Assembly: GCA_944321945.1 (NCBI GenBank)
Contig: CALUNE010000003.1
Coordinates: 62,001-126,000 of the forward strand
DNA from: an uncultured Alistipes sp.
GTDB taxonomy: Bacteria; Bacteroidota; Bacteroidia; Bacteroidales; Rikenellaceae
DNA length: 64,000 nt
Direction: 5' to 3'
Position numbers and translations under genes: made by a program. Below, one piece after another: positions 12,666 to 27,346 of this stretch (positions are counted from its first letter, which is position 1; each line of letters opens with the position of its first letter). Under the pieces are notes generated by a model. The model had not been told where the DNA came from. It worked only from the letters and a program-made list of their open reading frames with translations, and did no database searches.

Positions 12666-12697
12666 TTTGCACGGTTCGGAAATTTGCCCTACATTTG
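12666..12697 (+). promoter_or_regulatory. Promoter of the left tRNA-Arg
   Basis: TTTG (12666-12669) and TACATTTG (12690-12697) separated by exactly 20 bases match the Bacteroidota -33/-7 consensus. Only the -7 box lies within the 102-bp repeat. The copy at 27246-27253 keeps the -7 box but has no TTTG at the same spacing. Confidence 0.7.
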
Positions 12698-12790
12698 CAC
12701 TCGCAATCAAGGAAAGGCGCCGTAGCTTAATTGAATAGAGCATCTGACTACGGATCAGAAGGTTACAGGTTTGAGTCCTGTCGGCGTCAC
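12689..12790 (+). repeat. Left 102-bp direct repeat flanking the element
   Basis: Identical base for base to 27245-27346. It covers the tRNA -7 box, 19 bases of leader, the complete tRNA-Arg and one base beyond. The crossover point of the integrase should lie within this stretch. Confidence 0.9.
12716..12789 (+). tRNA. tRNA-Arg(ACG), left copy at the element junction
   Basis: A full cloverleaf of 74 nt: acceptor GGCGCCG with CGGCGTC (one G-T pair), D stem GCTT/GAGC, anticodon stem TCTGA/TCAGA with loop CTACGGA (anticodon ACG), T stem ACAGG/CCTGT and discriminator A. CCA is not encoded. It is identical to the copy at 27272-27345. Confidence 0.93.
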
Positions 12791-12800
12791 TCTCAAAATC

Positions 12801-12831
12801 AACCACTTACAGCAATGTGAGTGGTTTTTTT
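12801..12831 (+). terminator. Terminator just inside the left end
   Basis: An 11-base stem AACCACTTACA/TGTGAGTGGTT (one wobble), GCAA loop and a seven-T run. It is element DNA and now terminates the left tRNA-Arg transcript; the chromosomal equivalent is probably the hairpin at 27351-27376. Confidence 0.8.
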
Positions 12832-12873
12832 GTGTGCTGTTTCGGGCGGTTTTCACGGGCTTTTTACCCAGTT

Positions 12874-12894
12874 GTGTAAACCAGTGTGTAAACC
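12874..12894 (+). repeat. Paired GTGTAAACC motif, left end
   Basis: Two direct copies of GTGTAAACC (12874-12882 and 12886-12894) with a 12-base period, just upstream of the integrase start. The same pair recurs at 27153-27173 and in variant form at 27464-27484. Candidate integrase arm-type binding sites. Confidence 0.5.
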
Positions 12895-12904
12895 GAAAAA
12901 ACCG

Positions 12905-14137
12905 ATGAACACCACCATCGAAGCGGTTCTCTACACCTCCAAGACTTTATCCAACGGCCAGCACCCCATCCTGTTACGGCTGACCAAGAATCGGAAACGG
13001 AAGTACATCAGCCTCCATATCTCCCTCCCGCAGGAGCAATGGGATGCCGAAAAGTGTAAACCACGCCGCAACTGCCCCGACCGAGAGCGGATCGAGGCCC
13101 TCATCCAGCAAAAGACGCAGGAGCTCCAGCATCAAGTCATGGACTTCAAGACGAGCGACAAGGAGTACACGTTGAGCACGCTGATCGCAAAGGCATCCCG
13201 CAAGGTCGTACGCCAAACCGTCGGTGATTATCTGAACGGTTACATCGACCGTCTGCTGGCCGTGAACCGTGTCGGAAACGCCAAGACCTTTCAGGAACTC
13301 CGCACCTCTCTGACCCGATTCTGTCATTCGCTGGACTTCTACTTTCTCGACATCAACACCGAATGGCTGAAACGCTACGAACAATGGTTACGGGTAGAGC
13401 GTCACTATTCGGACAACTCCATCGGCATCCGCTTTCGTTCGTTGCGCGCACTCTACAACAGTGCCGTTACCGACGGGCTCATCATGAAGACGGACTACCC
13501 TTTCGATACGTTCAAGGTAAGCCGATTCAAGGAGGCCACAGCCAAACGATCGCTCACAAAGGAGGAGATTCGGCGGATCATGGATTGCGAGGTGCGGATG
13601 CTGACCAAGTACCCCAAACCGTTCCTGCAACTGGCCAAAGACCTGTTCCTGTTCAGCTATCTGTCGTGCGGCATCAATCTGACCGACATCCTGCATATCC
13701 GCTATGCCGACATCGTGGACGGACGCTTGGTCTTCAACCGCCAGAAAACGGGCAAACTCCTCTCGTTCCATCTACAGCCCGAGGCTCTTGCCATTCTTGA
13801 CAAGTACCGTCAGCCAAACGCTCATCCGCAGGATTACATCTTTCCCGTGCTGAAACGAACCGTCCACGTCACGGCCCAGCAACAATACGGACGGGTGCAA
13901 CGGACGAACAAACGGGTCAACCGTTACCTGAAGCTCATCGGTGAACACTTGCACCTACCCATCCCGCTGACAACCTACGTAGCCCGCCACAGCTTTGCCA
14001 CCGTGTTGAAAAGATCGGGAGTTTCGACCTCCATCATTTCGGAATCGCTCGGACACAGTTCGGAAAAGACCACGCAAATCTACCTCGATTCATTCGAGAA
14101 CTCGCAAATCGACGAGGCCATGCGGCATCTGCTGTAA
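12905..14137 (+). CDS. Tyrosine recombinase (integrase)
   Basis: A 410-residue phage-type integrase of the Bacteroidota kind: an N-terminal arm-binding domain (MNTTIEAVLYTSKTLSNGQH), a SAM-like core-binding domain and a C-terminal catalytic domain. Visible catalytic residues are the Arg in the SYLSCGINLTDIL region, Lys in RQKTGKLL, H-x-x-R as ARHSFATVL, then LGHSSEKTTQIY with the second histidine and the nucleophile Tyr. It is transcribed inward from the left repeat and should catalyse integration and excision at tRNA-Arg. I chose ATG 12905; the longer open frame includes the GTGTAAACC motifs and is unlikely to be translated. Confidence 0.93.
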   Translation: MNTTIEAVLYTSKTLSNGQHPILLRLTKNRKRKYISLHISLPQEQWDAEKCKPRRNCPDRERIEALIQQKTQELQHQVMDFKTSDKEYTLSTLIAKASRKVVRQTVGDYLNGYIDRLLAVNRVGNAKTFQELRTSLTRFCHSLDFYFLDINTEWLKRYEQWLRVERHYSDNSIGIRFRSLRALYNSAVTDGLIMKTDYPFDTFKVSRFKEATAKRSLTKEEIRRIMDCEVRMLTKYPKPFLQLAKDLFLFSYLSCGINLTDILHIRYADIVDGRLVFNRQKTGKLLSFHLQPEALAILDKYRQPNAHPQDYIFPVLKRTVHVTAQQQYGRVQRTNKRVNRYLKLIGEHLHLPIPLTTYVARHSFATVLKRSGVSTSIISESLGHSSEKTTQIYLDSFENSQIDEAMRHLL

Positions 14138-14204: not shown

Positions 14205-15044
14205 TTACCCGAGGTATTTTTCCAGTGTGTCATAGGTCGCTTGTTCCCGCGAAACATCCTCTTCCGTCTTGGGGTTCATGATCTCTTTCACCTGCTCCTC
14301 CGTCAGACTTCTCAACTTCTCTTCCATCTGGCTGCTGAACAGCATGGGATCCGCCGCATGGTTGAACTTCTTAATCAGGAAGGTGATCAGATACTTTTTC
14401 GCCAGGAACGCATTCGGAATCCGTTCCGACGCCGCCTCATACCACTTGACGCTTCGGTGGAACCATCCTGCATCTCCAAAGGCCCGCGGCAGTACTTTGC
14501 TCTTGACACTGGCTACAAGGTCTTTCGGTTTGAGGGAGTTGGCACCCGTACACCAGAGTGAGATGGTCGCCAGCGGGAAGCCCTTCGTCTGCAACTCCAC
14601 GGCAAAGTCAAAGACCTCATTCTTTTCTCCGAGAGCCATTGCTGGAGCCGCCATATAATCGGTTCCCTTCCACGAGGTCGTACAGATGTTCATCTCGGCA
14701 ATCAGGGCCGCAATCTCCATCTCGGCATTCAGCGCCTCACAAATCACGAGGTCATCCAAGTTCTTGCCCAAGTTCATCCATGCGACCACTCGGTGCTGTC
14801 CATCCACCACGGCATAGTACTGTTCTGTCTGCTTGTCGGGGATGTCGTTTCCCTGCAGGTCGACCAGATGGCCGCTCATCAGGTAGACATCCTCACCCTT
14901 CACGACGGTGATGGGCGACAGCTGCCCATGCTCCTGCATCGATTTCTCCTTGGCCTTCACGGTCTTGGCATTGGTCGGGCGGTTACCCTTTACAAATGCG
15001 AACTGACGATTCTGGTTGTCCGAGGTGATAATCAGCTTTTTCAT
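14205..15044 (-). CDS. ParB/Srx-fold domain protein
   Basis: A 279-residue soluble protein with a ParB/sulfiredoxin-like N-terminal domain: a KTVKAKEKSMQEHGQLSPITVV segment (here given only as family resemblance) followed by the hallmark VVDGQHRVVAWMNLG near residues 77-91. The C-terminal half is helical and charged. ParB-fold proteins can be CTP-binding partition factors, nucleases or adaptors; nothing here decides among them. It stands alone on the minus strand, with a small CTCCGT/ACGGAG hairpin upstream at 15057-15073, and is close in composition to the integrase and to the ATPase/DUF3871 pair, which suggests one backbone. Confidence 0.75.
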   Translation of the reverse strand: MKKLIITSDNQNRQFAFVKGNRPTNAKTVKAKEKSMQEHGQLSPITVVKGEDVYLMSGHLVDLQGNDIPDKQTEQYYAVVDGQHRVVAWMNLGKNLDDLVICEALNAEMEIAALIAEMNICTTSWKGTDYMAAPAMALGEKNEVFDFAVELQTKGFPLATISLWCTGANSLKPKDLVASVKSKVLPRAFGDAGWFHRSVKWYEAASERIPNAFLAKKYLITFLIKKFNHAADPMLFSSQMEEKLRSLTEEQVKEIMNPKTEEDVSREQATYDTLEKYLG

Positions 15045-15193: not shown

Positions 15194-16027
15194 TTACTCT
15201 CCCTCTTCCTGGGACAGGATCAGTCCGCCCGTATAAACCCGAGGCTCCAGTTGGTTGAAGTCTGTCTTTCCGTACTGTTTCAGGACGCCTTTCAGCGAGG
15301 AGCTGTCGACCGTGAAGGATTCATTAACGGTCAATCGGCAGAAATAGATGATGCGGGAGACAAGGAGCAGTTTGCTGTACGATACGACCTCTCCCCGTTT
15401 GGCACGCAACTCGGGTAATTGGAGCAGATCGAACAGCTCCTTGAACAACCGATACATCAACACCTGCTGTTGAGCCGTGGAGAGCGATTCCGTATAGTTC
15501 CTGTATCGAGGATCAATCGTCAGGATTTTTTGTCGGGGCGGTTCTGGATATTGCGCCAGCTCCTGCTGGACGAAACGACGCAGGCAGTCCAGAATCAACG
15601 GACTGTTGGTTTCGTAGCGCTCACTTTTGCGCAACTCCCGATCCTCCGAAAGGTAGAGAACCGTTTTCGGATGCTGTTGCAGGAAATCGTTGAGTTCCGT
15701 CAGAACCTCATAATCCGTCTTGCGGACATCAGCGGCATTCAGGCAGAACGAGGTCGTAATGTCGTAGATGAAGAGCAGTGCATACCAGAACTTTTCGGCA
15801 TCCAGTCCGTACCCCTCCAGTGTAGCCATGATGTCGTCGTTATCCCTGAAGGCTTCATAGGTGAAGGGAGCTTTCACCAAGCCTTTGTTCAGACGGGAAA
15901 GGAATCGGAGGCTCCAGTCACTCGGACAAGGGCCCTCTCCGTCCCAGCCTACATTGATTCGGTCGGCCAGTCGGTTGGCATACTCCATGACTTCATCATT
16001 CCAGTTTTGAGGGATCGTACAGTTCAT
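15194..16027 (-). CDS. Element protein of unknown function
   Basis: A 277-residue soluble, helix-rich protein without signal peptide, membrane segment or a motif I recognise. A central SEDRELRKSERYETNSP stretch is strongly charged, and tryptophans use TGG. A consensus promoter (TTG-N20-TATTTTTG, 16052-16082 on the minus strand) lies just upstream of the start. About 150 bases separate it from the ParB-fold gene, so both may be on one transcript. No function is proposed. Confidence 0.7.
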   Translation of the reverse strand: MNCTIPQNWNDEVMEYANRLADRINVGWDGEGPCPSDWSLRFLSRLNKGLVKAPFTYEAFRDNDDIMATLEGYGLDAEKFWYALLFIYDITTSFCLNAADVRKTDYEVLTELNDFLQQHPKTVLYLSEDRELRKSERYETNSPLILDCLRRFVQQELAQYPEPPRQKILTIDPRYRNYTESLSTAQQQVLMYRLFKELFDLLQLPELRAKRGEVVSYSKLLLVSRIIYFCRLTVNESFTVDSSSLKGVLKQYGKTDFNQLEPRVYTGGLILSQEEGE

Positions 16028-16126: not shown

Positions 16127-16158
16127 TTTGATTCATTGTAAAATATTTTATATATTTG
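16127..16158 (+). promoter_or_regulatory. Consensus promoter upstream of the helicase-like gene
   Basis: TTTG (16127-16130), 20 bases, TATATTTG (16151-16158). The transcript should start near 16165 and meets the hairpin at 16211-16236 after about 45 bases. Confidence 0.65.
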
Positions 16159-16164
16159 TACAAC

Positions 16165-16236
16165 TTTTCTACGAAAGACAACCACCATTCAAATAGGGAT
16201 AATTTTTGTTAAGGCAGATTCGTCTGCCTTTTCTTT
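16165..16236 (+). ncRNA. Candidate short RNA or attenuated leader
   Basis: A consensus promoter is followed by a perfect 8-base stem AAGGCAGA/TCTGCCTT with a TTCG tetraloop (16211-16230) and a T-rich tail. This gives a transcript of roughly 70 nt unless the polymerase reads on to the helicase-like gene at 16355. The ends are inferred only from promoter and terminator positions. Confidence 0.4.
16211..16236 (+). terminator. Hairpin terminator or attenuator in the leader
   Basis: Stem AAGGCAGA/TCTGCCTT, loop TTCG, followed by TTCTTT. It lies between the promoter at 16127-16158 and the gene at 16355, so that gene would be expressed only by readthrough or antitermination. The AT-rich remainder up to 16354 holds one 10-codon ATG...TAA frame (16310-16342) in phase with the gene. 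Confidence 0.55.
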
Positions 16237-16354
16237 GCGCTGTCTTTCCACATTTTTTGAGTGTGAAATAAAAGTCTCCTTTATAAATATAGATTCAAGA
16301 TTAAAAAAGATGGAAGAATATACAGATATTTCTAATTATTAAATATATAAGCAT

Positions 16355-18173
16355 ATGAACACAAATCAAAACTGAACGATTGAAGCTCCCGAAGGAGCAA
16401 CTTATCTGTCGGACTTTCTGACAGAGATTCCTAATAACTGTCTCTTCAACAAGAGACAAACAGGGTGCGGTGCTACTGAACTGGCCATCCGTAATCCGAT
16501 TCCTACAATTATAGCCATGCCTTACGTGGCACTGGTCAAGAACAAAACCATCTACCGACAAGACAACGTTTCCGTGCTAGGCGTTTACGAAGGGATCGAG
16601 GAACAGGATGTTATGGAATACGCGCAAAGCCACTCTCCCTTAAAGATCGCCGTTACATACGATTCGCTACCACGAACCATCAGGGCATTACAGGCTGCAG
16701 GTCTCGATCCTTATAACGACCTTTTCCTGCTGGTTGATGAATGACATGTCTTATTCAACTCCTACTCGTTCCGTCATACAGCCATCAAGAATCTATTGGC
16801 GGAGTCTGGAAAATTCGCCAGTGTCACTTACATGACCGCTACTCCGATTGAACGGGAGTATGTTTTGGAAGAGCTGAAGCATCTGCCCATATGCGAAATT
16901 AGCTGACCTCATCTGACAGAGATCCATGTGCGTTCCCGTCAAACATCCAAGCCTGCACAATATATCGTTAAAGAGTGCCGCAAGGTATTGGATGGTGGCT
17001 TGCCTTACAATCTACACATCTTTGTAAACAGCGTAGAGTTCATCGCAAGGGTGATAGATATGGCTAAACTCACCCCCGACCAAGTGAAAGTGGTTTGCTC
17101 CACAAGCGGGGATAATAGCGAGAACAACCAGCGCAAGTTAGGCAAGGACTATCCCATTGATCAGCCGTCAGACCCCGTGAAGAAGATAAACTTTTACACC
17201 TCGACCTGTTTTGAAGGATGTGATCTGTATGATGAAAACGGGGGTTACTTTCATCGTCAGCGATGGCAACAAGGCTCATACCTTATTGGACATCTCAACC
17301 CTGTTTACTCAAATTTGCGGGCGGGTACGCGATTCCAAATACAAAAGGGAGATTATCCATGTCTTCTCAACGACCAAATACAGCCGAGAGGTAACATTGA
17401 ATGAATATGTGGCCGCCACTCAAAAGACATTGAAGGAAGCCGTACAGTATGCCCAAGAGATCAATGCGTTGAGCGACAAAACTCGGGTAAAGACCTTGTC
17501 TAAGATCAAATATATCAACGAGCAATATGTAAGGATTGAGGACAACAAGCTGGTCGTGGATAAGAATCTGGCCAATATGGACATCGTAAACTTCAAGATA
17601 TGCCGCCATATTTACAGAACCTATGTAAACCTTTCCAGCGAACTGAAACGAAACGGATACTTCATTACACAGCACTCATTCAGCGAGATTATCGAGAAGC
17701 TGGAGGATAAAAACAATGCGCGGGTTACATTCAAGGAGTTGTTTGAAGAATACCATCGACTGAAAACGTCCCAGCCTTTTTTCTCATTGGTAAGCCATGA
17801 AGAACTGTGTGCCCAGATTGCTGTCAAATATCCTTTGGTAAAGCAGGCTTATGAGGTGTTGGGAACAGCCAAAATACAGGCGTTGAAATATCATGTAGGC
17901 AACATCCGCAGGGAGTTAACGAAACAGTGTTCTGTTCCTGTCGAACGCAAGATTGTCAAGATGATAAATGAGACATTTGCCAAGCAGGCATCCATCGCAA
18001 AGAGCAAGGTCAAAACTGAACTGCAAAAGATATACGACAGTTTGGGTATTCAACAAACTGCAAAAGCGACCGATCTTGCCAAATGATACGAGGTGAAAAC
18101 GACATCACCGAAAATCAATGGCAAAACAACGGCATGTATAGTTATCGTAAGAGATAGAATGGTTACAAAATAA
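16355..18173 (+). CDS. SF2 DExH helicase-like gene with four in-frame UGA codons at Trp positions and one frameshift
   Basis: Read with UGA as Trp and one base skipped in the G5 run at 17240-17244, this is a 605-codon gene ending in TAA at 18171. It has superfamily 2 helicase motifs: Walker A-like QTGCGATELA (residues 35-44), motif II VDE-UGA-H (127-131), motif III TYMTATP (158-164) and motif VI QICGRVRDS. UGA occurs at 16373, 16742, 16904 and 18084, and no UGG occurs in the frame. The UGA at 18084 is followed by 28 more plausible codons (YEVKTTSPKINGK) before the TAA. Under the standard code only fragments (16517-16744, 16928-17404, 17211-18086) could be made. Either a recoded gene or a pseudogene; the helicase assignment itself is firm. 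Confidence 0.72.
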
Positions 18174-18739: not shown

Positions 18740-18961
18740 ATGGCAATAATTTTTCTGAATGAATATAACGATAAGGAGCTGTGCGATTTCTGTAAGGCCA
18801 AAGGGGTGGCAGCATCCAGACGAAACAAGGTGGCATTATCGGTTCTGCTTACCAAGTACAATGCCGTTGGCGTTCCGAATACGGAGCCGATAAGTCTGAC
18901 CTGCCAACTCAACAAGCGTTGCAAACAGCTTCCCGAGAAGGTTTCCATCCCCTATTTATAA
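18740..18961 (+). pseudogene. Small repeated ORF, copy A (one-base deletion)
   Basis: From ATG 18740 the product begins MAIIFLNEYNDKELCDFCK and is closely similar to the fragment at 21842-22084. Copy A ends IPYL at a TAA. Relative to copy B one T is missing there, and the rest of the shared protein (IKVLDMQEQYREVVEK) continues in another frame until about 19018. So this is a 3'-frameshifted copy of a gene of about 110 codons. The CDFC pair could bind metal; function unknown. Confidence 0.5.
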
Positions 18962-19105
18962 AGGTGCTTGATATGCAGGAACAGTATCGGGAGGTGGTGG
19001 AGAAGAGCAGACGGATTTCAAAAGTTTTTTTCAGGTTTTACAATAAAAACATCATTTTAAGCGTAGCACAAAGAATATCAATAATTCAGTTTGCAACTAC
19101 TTTAT

Positions 19106-19113
19106 TATATTTG
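19106..19113 (+). promoter_or_regulatory. Predicted -7 box (TATATTTG) of the restriction-modification pair
   Basis: TATATTTG ends 21 bases before the methylase ATG. No -33 TTG is found at the usual spacing. Confidence 0.4.
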
Positions 19114-19134
19114 CAAAATAAAAGTTCGGATTAT

Positions 19135-20010
19135 ATGAAACCCATTATAAAATATAGAGGAGGAAAATCTAAGGAAATTCCCCTGCTCGTCCCTTACATT
19201 CCTAAATTTTCAGGAAGATATATAGAACCTTTCTTAGGGGGAGGGGCTATGTATTTTTATCTGGAACCCTCTAATGCCATTGTTAATGACATTAACAATA
19301 AATTAATGACCTTTTACAAAGGCGTTCAACAAAATTACCTGGAACTAAAAAGAGAACTATCAGAAATCGAAAAAATATATACTATTAACCGATCAGCCTT
19401 TGAAGTTCTCAAAAAGAAACATCCAGAAGAAAGAGTTACGGATGGGAATGAAACTCTTTATTATTTTCTAAGAGATATGTACAACGATTTAATTCCGCCG
19501 TCTTATTCATCTGCGGCTCTTTATTACTTTATCAATAAAACAGCCTATAGCGGAATGATAAGATATAACTCTAAAGGTGAATATAATGTCCCTTATGGTA
19601 GATACAGGAATTTTAATACAGGGCTGATTACAGACGCTCATCATAAGTTATTGGCTAATACAAAAATATTTACAGGTGATTATTCTCATATATTTGAGAT
19701 GGCTAATAAAAATGATTTTATATTCTTAGATCCTCCTTATGATTGTATATTTTCCGACTATGGGAATGACGAATACAAAGAAGGATTTAATGAAGCCAAT
19801 CATAGAAAATTAGCGGCTGATTTCTTTAATTTGAAATGTAAGGCTCTTATGGTAATTGGAGCAACTCCTCTTACCAGAAAATTATATGGCAATAATATTA
19901 TAGCGGAATACGGTAAAAGTTATTCTGTAAATATACGAAATAGGTTTCAGGCTGAGGCAACTCATATAATAATAACGAATTATGGCAATCCTCAGGAGTC
20001 ATCCAATTAA
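19135..20010 (+). CDS. D12-class N6-adenine DNA methyltransferase (Dam-like)
   Basis: A 291-residue methyltransferase. The N-terminal IKYRGGKSKEI and FLGGGAMYF segments form the AdoMet site of D12/Dam enzymes, and FIFLDPPYD supplies the catalytic DPPY motif. It should methylate adenine in the target of the endonuclease gene that follows and overlaps its 3' end by 29 bases. For an AlwI-type enzyme (GGATC) a GATC-specific methylase would protect both strands. ATG 19135 was chosen for its fit to the family N-terminus; the longer frame upstream is the tail of the repeated ORF. Strongly AT-rich compared with the backbone. Confidence 0.9.
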   Translation: MKPIIKYRGGKSKEIPLLVPYIPKFSGRYIEPFLGGGAMYFYLEPSNAIVNDINNKLMTFYKGVQQNYLELKRELSEIEKIYTINRSAFEVLKKKHPEERVTDGNETLYYFLRDMYNDLIPPSYSSAALYYFINKTAYSGMIRYNSKGEYNVPYGRYRNFNTGLITDAHHKLLANTKIFTGDYSHIFEMANKNDFIFLDPPYDCIFSDYGNDEYKEGFNEANHRKLAADFFNLKCKALMVIGATPLTRKLYGNNIIAEYGKSYSVNIRNRFQAEATHIIITNYGNPQESSN

Positions 20011-21679
20011 TGGGAAGACACTTTTCTTTACGACGTCCCCGAGAACTCCTTTTAAAGTATTACCAGAAATAAAACTTTTGGTAAATAATATGAACGGAGA
20101 AGTGTGGGACTCTAATACACAAAGAAGATTTTATCAATTACTGGTTGATAATGATTTTTTTGAGGGAACCGAATCAAAAAATCCTGCGTTATCTGCCAGA
20201 GATAGAATTAATCGAATTCCCAAAGCATTAGGTTTAATTACGCTACCTATAATTGGCTATTCTGATGCAGGAAAGGAGTTTGTAGAATCTGAAAATAACA
20301 AGGAGGAGATATTACTTCGTCAATTGCTGAAATTTCAACTGCCTTCACCATACCACCCTTTAGGGAGATCGGCTACCGATTACAATGTAAAACCATATTT
20401 AGAGATATTAAGGCTAATTTATGATCTGGACGGTTTGGCTTTTGACGAGCTTCAAATATTTGGGATGCAACTGGTTAATTATACTAGATATGAGGAAATA
20501 GTAGCTAAAATTAAGAATTTCAGAGTCCAAAAGGACGCTTATAAAGGTAAATACAAGGAATTTAAGCAACAAATATTTTATAACGAAGCCAGAAAAATTT
20601 ATTCAAAAGAGATCGTTGCAGGAGACATAAATACCAGGGAAAGTAAAACCACGACAATTGAAGATTTCTTGAGCAAAAAAATAAGAAATCTTAGAGATTA
20701 TTCTGATGCTGCAGTCAGACATCTGAGAACAACAGGTATAATAAATGCCACAGCTATAGGGAAGACATTGTCAATCGCTCCAGAAAGAAGAAAAGATGTG
20801 GAGTATATTCTAAAAACTGTTTCCAGAGAGCCTGTTTTTATTTCAGATTTAACCTCCTATCAAGAATATCTATTTAATCCCAATCTTCCGATCCTTCTTA
20901 CGGATGATAGAGCCAATATCCTGGAGAAATTATCTGATGAATTTAAAATAACACCAGATATTAATCTCAATTTAAACCAACTAAAGGATCTGTTAAATAG
21001 GAGGATCGAGGAGAGACGCTCACAGCGAATTGCTGCAAAGGTAAAAGATATAAAGGATTACAAATTATATGAAGATATTGAGAATGTCTTTAATTCCATA
21101 AATAATTACTATGAACCATCATTATTTCTTGAATGGAACGCATGGAGAGCCATGACAATGTTAAATGGTGGTAATATTAAAGCAAATTTAAAGTTTGATG
21201 ATGAGGGTAATCCGATGAATACAGCCTTAGGTAATATGGCTGACATAGTATGTGATTATGGCGACTTTGACATAACTGTAGAGGTTACTATGGCCAAGGG
21301 GGCCCTACAGTTCAAGATGGAAGGAGAGCCTGTTCCCAGACATATCGGGCAATTAAAGAAAAAGACGAATAAAACTACATATTGTTTTTTCATTGCACCA
21401 ACCATAAATCCAGCTACTATTGCTCATTTTTATACGTTATATATCTCTAATATTGACATGTACGGAGGCAAGTGCTGCATAATACCCCTAACCATAAATA
21501 CATTTAGAAAAATGCTAAAGGCGGCTGTAGATGCACCACATAGGCCGAATCCGTCTGATCTAAAGAAACTTTTTGATGTCTCTAAAAGATATGTTAAAGA
21601 GTGTATTAGTAATGATAAAACAGAAAATGATTGGTATAGTAGGATTACAGAGACAGCTACTAATTGGTTATCTGCATAA
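19982..21679 (+). CDS. AlwI-family type II restriction endonuclease
   Basis: A 565-residue protein of the AlwI family, recognised from the C-terminal catalytic region: NTALGNMADIVCDYGDFDI, VEVTMAKGALQFKMEGEPV (an E/D...ExT-K-like nuclease core), RHIGQLKKK and YCFFIAPTINP. AlwI cuts near the asymmetric site GGATC; specificity here is inferred from the family. It overlaps the methylase gene, the usual arrangement of a restriction-modification module. Trp codons are TGG, unlike the helicase-like gene. The module lies between two terminator/ORF repeats, so it looks like an exchangeable cassette. Confidence 0.87.
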   Translation: MAILRSHPINGKTLFFTTSPRTPFKVLPEIKLLVNNMNGEVWDSNTQRRFYQLLVDNDFFEGTESKNPALSARDRINRIPKALGLITLPIIGYSDAGKEFVESENNKEEILLRQLLKFQLPSPYHPLGRSATDYNVKPYLEILRLIYDLDGLAFDELQIFGMQLVNYTRYEEIVAKIKNFRVQKDAYKGKYKEFKQQIFYNEARKIYSKEIVAGDINTRESKTTTIEDFLSKKIRNLRDYSDAAVRHLRTTGIINATAIGKTLSIAPERRKDVEYILKTVSREPVFISDLTSYQEYLFNPNLPILLTDDRANILEKLSDEFKITPDINLNLNQLKDLLNRRIEERRSQRIAAKVKDIKDYKLYEDIENVFNSINNYYEPSLFLEWNAWRAMTMLNGGNIKANLKFDDEGNPMNTALGNMADIVCDYGDFDITVEVTMAKGALQFKMEGEPVPRHIGQLKKKTNKTTYCFFIAPTINPATIAHFYTLYISNIDMYGGKCCIIPLTINTFRKMLKAAVDAPHRPNPSDLKKLFDVSKRYVKECISNDKTENDWYSRITETATNWLSA

Positions 21680-21800: not shown

Positions 21801-21841
21801 ACTGATTTTGGCAATAATTTTCCTGCTGTAAGGCCAAAGGT

Positions 21842-22084
21842 TTGGCAGCGCCCAAGCGAAACAAGGTGGCATTATCTGTACTGCTTACAAAGTACAATGC
21901 CGCAGGTGTTCCGAGTACGGAGCCAATAAGCCTGACCTACCAGCTCAACAAGCGTTGCAAACAGCTACCCGAGAAGGTTTCCATTCCTTACTTTATAAAG
22001 GTGCTCGATATGCAGGAACAGTATCAGGAGGTGATGGAGAAGAACAAACAGAGTAAAGAGAAGTTTGGAGGGTTTGAGTTTTAG
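21842..22084 (+). pseudogene. Small repeated ORF, copy B (5' truncated)
   Basis: Encodes KRNKVALSVLLTKYN, KRCKQLPEKVSIPYFIKV and MQEQYQEVMEKN, nearly identical to copy A, but with about 35 bases deleted in the region that encodes NEYNDKELCDF in copy A, and with a stop at 21815 in frame upstream. It has no ATG and is probably a remnant. It shows that the terminator plus ORF unit was duplicated on either side of the restriction-modification genes. Confidence 0.5.
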
Positions 22085-27244: not shown

Positions 27245-27346
27245 CTACATTTGCACTCGCAATCAAGGAAAGGCGCCGTAGCTTAATTGAATAGAGCATC
27301 TGACTACGGATCAGAAGGTTACAGGTTTGAGTCCTGTCGGCGTCAC
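27245..27346 (+). repeat. Right 102-bp direct repeat flanking the element
   Basis: Identical to 12689-12790, including the -7 box TACATTTG at 27246-27253, but the bases upstream differ and contain no -33 TTTG at the normal spacing. Confidence 0.9.
27272..27345 (+). tRNA. tRNA-Arg(ACG), right copy
   Basis: Identical in all 74 bases to the left copy and able to form the same cloverleaf with anticodon ACG. It keeps the -7 box but lacks a recognisable -33 box, so its expression is uncertain. A hairpin follows at 27351-27376. Confidence 0.92.

Follow-up and report, generated by a model that had tools for sequence, protein, structure and literature searches.

The window analysed here, a stretch of 64,000 nucleotides from an uncultured Alistipes species (family Rikenellaceae), carries a helicase-like gene whose reading frame is crossed by UGA codons and by no other stop. 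This raises the question of whether the gene is a decaying one or is written in a code in which UGA specifies tryptophan and, if the latter, what decodes it; its full protein needs something that lets the cell read UGA as Trp, and the neighbouring genes spell Trp normally.

A helicase gene with four in-frame UGA codons

The gene consists of two frame segments, with the following features.

16355..17245, + strand: helicase, first frame segment up to the frame change (ORF translation)
16373..16375, + strand: in-frame UGA, codon 7 counted from the ATG at 16355 (sequence)
16742..16744, + strand: in-frame UGA, codon 130, the Trp of a DEWH box (sequence, alignment)
16904..16906, + strand: in-frame UGA, codon 184, a Trp that is invariant in our alignments (alignment)
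17240..17244, + strand: run of five G residues, site of a one-base frame change (sequence)
17232..18173, + strand: helicase, second frame segment, ending in TAA at 18171-18173 (ORF translation)
18084..18086, + strand: in-frame UGA, codon 577 in earlier numbering and 285 within the second segment, a Trp invariant in the full-length alignment (alignment)
18087..18170, + strand: tail of 28 codons after the last UGA, under purifying selection (pN/pS 0.25, nine pairs pooled)

An earlier note on this DNA had placed UGA codons at 16373, 16742, 16904 and 18084 and a TAA at 18171; these coordinates are exact, and TGG, TAA and TAG are all absent from both frame segments ahead of the terminal TAA. The second UGA does lie inside the DExH box, where it takes the place of W in a DE-W-H motif (D128, E129, H131), between E129 and H131. 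Among the loci examined, only the window copy changes frame at the run of five G residues, which could reflect either a recent loss or an error in the assembly; the available sequence is a draft of 2.2 Mb, 77.65% complete.

Pfam DEAD matches two of the 18 aligned members of the helicase family, weakly (best 2.7e-4). P0001 alone gave no match to a Pfam helicase domain, P0001 and P0002 gave nothing convincing against Pfam and PHROGs, and a PDB profile search returned no match. Relatives in plasmids and in one phage are annotated as DEAD/DEAH or DEAD-like helicases.

UGA codons appear to specify tryptophan across the helicase family

Relatives of the window protein were found in 33 of the 268 Rikenellaceae genomes searched. 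Among the 40 matches listed, 16 contain internal TGA codons and a 17th is the second piece of the G564 gene, giving 16 loci in 14 genomes, the window copy included, all with at least 46% identity. A further 23 listed Rikenellaceae matches fall below 35% identity; 22 of these have no in-frame stop and one has a TAG. The TAG in the distant G359 helicase was considered as a case of recoding and rejected, as it aligns mostly with Tyr or Phe and appears to be an ordinary nonsense change.

The aligned parts of the 16 loci contain 56 TGA and 17 TGG codons and no TAA or TAG, with two to five TGA codons per gene; five homologues from other families of the order have 18 TGG and no TGA. When the one-step changes possible in the window gene are weighted equally, 42 of 258 nonsense changes yield TGA, just four of them from a Trp codon. 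A pattern in which all 56 of 56 'stops' are TGA is far beyond chance.

TGA and TGG replace each other at the same sites. At site 130 six loci have TGA, six have TGG and four encode Tyr. Two loci have TGG at site 184, against 14 with TGA, and one has TGG at site 285 of the second segment, against 15. Both codons also occur at sites 84 and 96 and, in the second segment, at site 76. Of the five homologues from outside the Rikenellaceae, all TGG users, every one has Trp at 184; four have it at 577, where G158 has Val, and three at 130, where the other two have Tyr. Both W184 and W577 are invariant in a full-length alignment of 16 sequences (13 from Rikenellaceae and three others), and among helicase relatives below about 30% identity the residues at the UGA sites vary freely. 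Codon 7 is TGA in nine of the 16 loci and Gln, Lys or Ser in several Rikenellaceae loci. Conservation of Trp at the four sites, which the earlier note had proposed as a check, is thus borne out at 184 and 577 and mostly at 130, but residue 7 varies, and outside close relatives its UGA does not align with a UGG-coded Trp as those at the other three sites do. The possibility that UGA directs insertion of selenocysteine or some other residue was rejected, the alternative codon at the same sites being UGG.

The protein is under purifying selection. Values of dN/dS were computable for eight of 12 helicase pairs, the other four being saturated, and range from 0.05 to 0.16, two of the eight pairs having dS above 2. 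With nine pairs pooled, pN/pS is 0.14, 0.12 and 0.17 in the segments between UGAs, and 0.25 beyond the last UGA, in the tail that the earlier note had called plausible. Selection both between and beyond the UGAs means that ribosomes must pass all of them often enough for the downstream parts to be selected. The frame is intact in 13 of the 16 loci; the three exceptions, the window copy, G411 and G564, are each interrupted by a single frameshift, and its position differs between them. Two genomes assembled as single contigs, G545 and G573, bear the UGA pattern with intact frames, so the pattern is not a sequencing artefact. A coding-potential scan across the stops was uninformative.

These comparisons make it very probable that UGA encodes Trp in the helicase gene and that selection keeps the full protein. 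Judged as a gene of genetic code 4, it has no other in-frame stops and shows purifying selection across the UGAs, with one frameshift in the window copy. Decay and sequencing error were rejected for the family, given 56 TGA against no TAA or TAG and the purifying selection. The earlier note had read the gene as written in a UGA=Trp code rather than randomly decayed, and the lack of TAA and TAG in the clade, the exchanges of TGA and TGG and the selection uphold that reading; decay, it had added, would be indicated by close relatives with stops of all three kinds, and none of them shows a TAA or TAG.

In a tree of helicases the 16 UGA loci and the virus record L162 form one clade (support 95/97), sister to the TGG-only helicases of G205, G230 and G372, with five phage helicases branching further out. 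The bacterial genomes searched yielded UGA helicases in no family other than the Rikenellaceae. As all the UGA loci fall in one clade, this link between host family and UGA codons represents one evolutionary event and not 16.

The helicase lies in an element integrated at a tRNA gene

The surroundings of the helicase have the following features.

12689..12790, no strand: left 102-bp direct repeat with tRNA-Arg(ACG), attachment site (100% identical to 27245-27346; ARAGORN)
12821..14137, + strand: tyrosine integrase, Trp encoded by TGG, likely true start Met 29 of the ORF (Pfam PF17293, PF13102, PF00589; codon counts)
14205..15044, - strand: ParB-like protein (weak PHROG matches, best 5e-5)
15194..16027, - strand: protein divergent from the helicase; it has homologues close to the helicases of other elements, and all its Trp codons are TGG (codon counts)
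27245..27346, no strand: right 102-bp direct repeat with tRNA-Arg(ACG) (repeat search; ARAGORN)

The window element thus combines an integrase with attachment repeats on either side that contain a tRNA gene. Elements bounded at each end by one and the same tRNA gene occur in the window, G397, G594, G545 and G405b, and those delimited in this way are about 9-15 kb long. No phage structural genes or relaxase were recognised in ten window ORFs compared with Pfam, in nine ORFs and a helicase segment compared with NCBIfam, or in four ORFs compared with PHROGs. The window element DNA has no near match in the phage records, and the G397 element is covered to about 1%. The helicase elements, integrated at Rikenellaceae tRNA genes, resemble phage satellites; the satellite label is putative, as is mobilisation by a helper.

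The window element also carries a Dam-type methylase gene and an AlwI-type restriction gene (18919-21679), located between direct repeats at 18790-19015 and 21826-22052. These repeats are 88-90% identical, and the two genes lie as if inserted by duplication.

Other genes of the element and host use UGG for tryptophan

The homologues of the G397 integrase in Rikenellaceae contain 42 TGG codons (counting the second integrases of two loci) and seven TGA codons, all of them terminal stops; the integrase ends at TGA in seven Rikenellaceae loci. Other genes of the same element behave similarly: orf98 has 73 TGG, no internal TGA and two terminal TGAs, orf266 has 35 TGG, no internal TGA and two terminal TGAs, and orf174 has 15 TGG and no internal TGA. 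In G545 the integrase stops at UGA and the helicase holds four in-frame UGAs. Host ORFs of at least 150 amino acids in the window end with TGA in 17 cases, TAA in eight and TAG in eight, as counted in the output of a crude ORF caller, some of whose ORFs are false. The integrase, orf98, orf266 and host ORF counts agree with the earlier observation that in other genes of the element and host Trp is written UGG and UGA is often the stop. As judged by these codon counts, the use of UGA for Trp is gene-specific, inside an element of a host with the standard code.

We scanned 21 loci pairwise for further UGA=Trp genes. The scan flagged the helicase, several ORFs opposite the helicase, a small gene that we call MNRYKQ, and others. 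The MNRYKQ gene (L077:3846-4319, strand not given, with homologues in L065, L066 and L076; identified by comparison of UGA and Trp codons) is a frame of 158 codons whose protein starts MNRYKQPKTEW. Across four elements it contains 11 TGA and three TGG codons; nine of the 11 TGAs stand where the G397 reference has Trp, and the other two are in G405b, the most distant copy. Each of the four copies has its first UGA at codon 10 or 11, and pN/pS is 0.19-0.25 in three pairs and 0.61 in comparisons with G405b. No match to MNRYKQ was found in phages, IMG/VR or PHROGs.

Four of the other candidates were rejected: the ORFs in G404 and G545 run antisense to genuine genes, as the one in G411 probably does, and the UGA of the G397 candidate sits ahead of the orf98 start. 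With the window integrase as query, three TGA, three TAA and one TAG in Rikenellaceae loci were found at query residues 15-28, before the likely start at Met 29.

A conserved leader precedes the helicase

Upstream of the window helicase are three features.

16151..16158, + strand: TATATTTG, which we take to be like the -7 box of the Bacteroidota promoter consensus (sequence)
16211..16230, + strand: hairpin of the helicase leader, terminator-like, with a T run behind it (hairpin scan)
16252..16289, + strand: conserved box ATTTTTTGA-N4-GAAAT...CTTTATAA, the sole match to this motif in the 64-kb window (motif scan)

Many helicase loci share this order, with a TATATTTG-like box (in some), the hairpin and T run, and then the ATTTTTTGA-N4-GAAAT...CTTTATAA box. 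Hairpins were found upstream of most related helicases, with stem sequences that differ by locus, in a scan run without a shuffle control that was also positive in two non-Rikenellaceae leaders. Among 14 other Rikenellaceae regions the strict leader motif occurs once in 12, twice in G597 and not at all in G545, and every strict match in these regions precedes a helicase. A shorter form of the motif occurs 21 times in 15 sequences, compared to 1.05 occurrences expected from shuffles. The strict box is absent from the virus loci examined, with the exception of L162; two IMG/VR matches look like chance. The leader box and hairpin suggest a second, transcriptional control of the helicase.

Host tRNAs and release factor 2

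The window's own genome showed no tRNA(UCA) in the 30 of 33 tRNA places scanned, and the sole Trp gene among those places, in this 77.65% complete assembly, has anticodon CCA. The single-contig genomes G545 and G573, in which the element is present, each show a single tRNA-Trp(CCA) sequence, and no UCA anticodon turned up in them; all listed places were read bar one 14.5-bit partial match, and calls of at least 100 bases were dropped. None of these three genomes thus showed a tRNA(UCA), and the candidate decoders include an external supplier and the tRNA-Trp(CCA) itself. ARAGORN found no tRNA with a UCA anticodon in 26 related loci, and a specific pattern for tRNA(UCA), which misses tRNAs of other sequence, gave five hits in the 268 Rikenellaceae genomes, none of them a tRNA. 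The release factor gene prfB was found in all ten genomes tested.

Motif CTTTGAC of the prfB programmed frameshift is missing from four genomes of the genus Alistipes, where the start region lies in one frame; it is found in three other Rikenellaceae genomes and in G372 (L305-L308 compared with L303, L304, L311 and L309), and G230 and G205 gave no clear call.

The host tRNA-Trp(CCA) is itself unusual. All 16 Rikenellaceae genomes examined (L109-L124) have the same atypical D-arm and anticodon arm in it, bearing U11-A24, G10-U25 and G27-U43 (numbered by hand), and in six other Bacteroidales tRNA-Trp genes we found C11-G24 or U11-G24 and a Watson-Crick 27-43 pair. The A24 corresponds to the Hirsh change; both G24A and G43U are reported to promote UGA reading by the tRNA-Trp of E. 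coli (PMC13092985). In the Rikenellaceae tRNA the 27-43 position is a G-U pair and is not open. Genome G529 has a second tRNA-Trp of the ordinary type (L131, G529:C10), possibly on a foreign contig, as the genome shows 3% contamination.

Phage records with homologous helicases

A profile search of IMG/VR returned eight loci with a homologous helicase. One, L162, is a 19.9-kb satellite-like record whose helicase shares the positions of some UGAs with the element copy G405a; the other records range from 15 to 204 kb. Three of the eight (G656, G658 and G662) encode a tRNA(UCA), and none was found in the other five, some of which are fragments. As G656 and G658 share an identical tRNA(UCA) and the same helicase identity, they are probably one phage type, and the three records amount to about two cases; the tRNA(UCA) of G662 differs. 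ARAGORN labels these tRNAs as tRNA-SeC by their anticodon, and charging with Trp is our assumption.

The G656 terminase is a frame of 735 amino acids with five in-frame UGAs that matches the PHROG terminase large subunit over residues 76-710 (1.6e-68). Two UGAs lie in the matching stretch in G656, G657 and G658, and G658 has another terminase-like match with no UGA. The phage helicases mostly use UGG, with UGA at W184 only in L166 and in the satellite-like L162. In the L166 fragment TGA is absent from the 11 predicted ORFs on the left of the helicase and present in the helicase itself and in the nine ORFs on its right. L163 shows a mixture of TGA and TGG on either side of the helicase. Coverage by code-4 ORFs is weak evidence for recoding in these phages because in L163, L166 and L169 the gain from taking TAA as sense is equal or larger, and the data for a pairwise phage test are thin. 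In L167 and L168, which also have a helicase homologue, the gain in ORF coverage is clearly larger with TAG than with TGA as sense, and these phages are possibly UAG-recoded.

We found no phage shown to infect Rikenellaceae. A comparison of a 19.9-kb stretch of G656 with the 268 Rikenellaceae genomes, in which two candidates were scored per genome, gave mainly two short stretches that match tRNA genes. One terminase with an internal TGA (G601) was present among the Rikenellaceae matches listed, so that recoded prophages are not evident.

What decodes the UGA codons?

The reading that we prefer, with a probability of about 0.55, is that these Rikenellaceae mobile elements carry a translation-gated helicase that is unlocked by a UGA-recoded phage. 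In the resting cell, release factor 2 would terminate helicase translation early, giving little or no protein; this early stop is placed near the start, since the first UGA is codon 7 in nine of the 16 loci. A phage using UGA for Trp would then infect, bringing its own tRNA(UCA), by which all of the helicase UGAs would be read as Trp and the helicase made, and the element could replicate alongside the phage. The UGA codons would act as a sensor of the helper phage. We regard it as an even bet that the decoder is a phage-supplied tRNA(UCA), and suggest somewhat more tentatively that a satellite senses its helper by the helper's genetic code, such that the code switch of the phage triggers its own parasite. 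For a drift in UGA number from two to five between relatives to be nearly neutral, the UGAs would have to be decoded efficiently whenever the gene is active.

The tRNA(UCA) genes in three of eight phage records and the UGA-containing G656 terminase count for phage supply, and the lack of tRNA(UCA) in G545 and G573 counts for an external source; the mainly UGG phage helicases, the UGA-free terminase-like match in G658 and the mixture in L163 count against phage supply. The recoded helper phage named in the earlier note thus has circumstantial support from the phage tRNAs and terminase, but its claim that the gene is translatable only with a UGA-reading tRNA is not proved, as the host tRNA-Trp(CCA) has features linked to leakiness.

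Those features permit the main rival explanation, in which the Rikenellaceae tRNA-Trp(CCA) itself reads UGA to a useful extent and the UGAs attenuate a harmful or copy-limited helicase to a low level in every cell, with no phage involved. The occurrence of the unusual tRNA-Trp and the UGA helicases in the same family, among the bacterial genomes searched, favours host leakiness, and the A24 and U43 seen in all 16 genomes are both tied to UGA reading (PMC13092985). We nonetheless rank this explanation, a serious one, second and consider it rather unlikely as the sole cause, because many host ORFs and several element genes end at UGA, neighbouring element genes avoid UGA for Trp, distant Rikenellaceae relatives of the helicase have no UGA, and the 27-43 pair is G-U and not open. 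Furthermore, two to five UGAs in series would cut output multiplicatively, leaving next to no protein if decoding were inefficient, yet their number varies between close relatives.

Some other conditional decoder is improbable, whether a stress or growth state, an element factor, an unrecognised tRNA, depletion of release factor 2, or A-to-I RNA editing. The conserved leader box and hairpin indicate that specific control of the gene may exist, but ARAGORN found no UCA-anticodon tRNA in the related loci and prfB is present in every genome tested; as for editing, the contexts of the UGAs vary widely, unlike the fixed sequence context of bacterial TadA editing. Ordinary decay of a pseudogene with stops that are UGA by chance is very improbable and could hold for the window copy should its frameshift prove real, which like G411 and G564 has a frameshift in a draft assembly, but for the family it is contradicted by the 56 TGAs with no TAA or TAG, the low dN/dS, the UGG of relatives at the same sites and the intact frames of the single-contig genomes.

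If phage-supplied decoding is true, stop-codon recoding is not confined to phage genomes, and single genes of chromosomal elements in standard-code bacteria use it as a lock. The 16 loci, some of them in isolates, would form a natural comparative system in which one codon is a stop in one gene and Trp next door, and would offer a test of why phages recode. Such genes have probably been annotated as broken fragments.

Comparison with known systems

Gut phages recoded at UGA or UAG have reportedly been described by Borges et al. in 2022. For crAss-like and other gut phages with UGA or UAG recoding, the recoding is thought to time late gene expression (PMC7886860, PMC10879173), and crAss-like phages that are recoded in part and have suppressor tRNAs are known (PMC7886860). 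As in those phages, UGA specifies Trp in some genes of a genome and not in others, within a standard-code host, and the proposed decoder of the helicase element is likewise a phage suppressor tRNA. Unlike them, the UGA gene here resides on a bacterial chromosome, in an element with no suppressor tRNA of its own and no recognised phage structural genes in the ORFs scanned, and recoding in the element is seen in the helicase and one small gene. Searches of the literature, from which subscription journals mostly fell out of scope, found no earlier report of a UGA=Trp gene of this kind in an element.

The suppressor-type bacterial tRNA-Trp(CCA), with its 4-bp anticodon stem and Hirsh G24A change (PMC13092985), is a second point of comparison. 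The Rikenellaceae copy is similar in having A24 and U43, and differs in that 27-43 is a G-U pair and host ORFs still end at UGA. The main text of PMC13092985 makes no mention of Alistipes or Rikenellaceae.

To our knowledge, known satellites sense their helpers through proteins. Sensing a helper by its genetic code would be new, and helper dependence is putative here. In other respects there are parallels to PICIs and P4-like satellites (PMC10111431, PMC8628076): the helicase elements are similarly small, with a tyrosine integrase, attachment repeats in a tRNA gene and a helicase, and they carry cargo, which in the window consists of the Dam and AlwI-type restriction genes.
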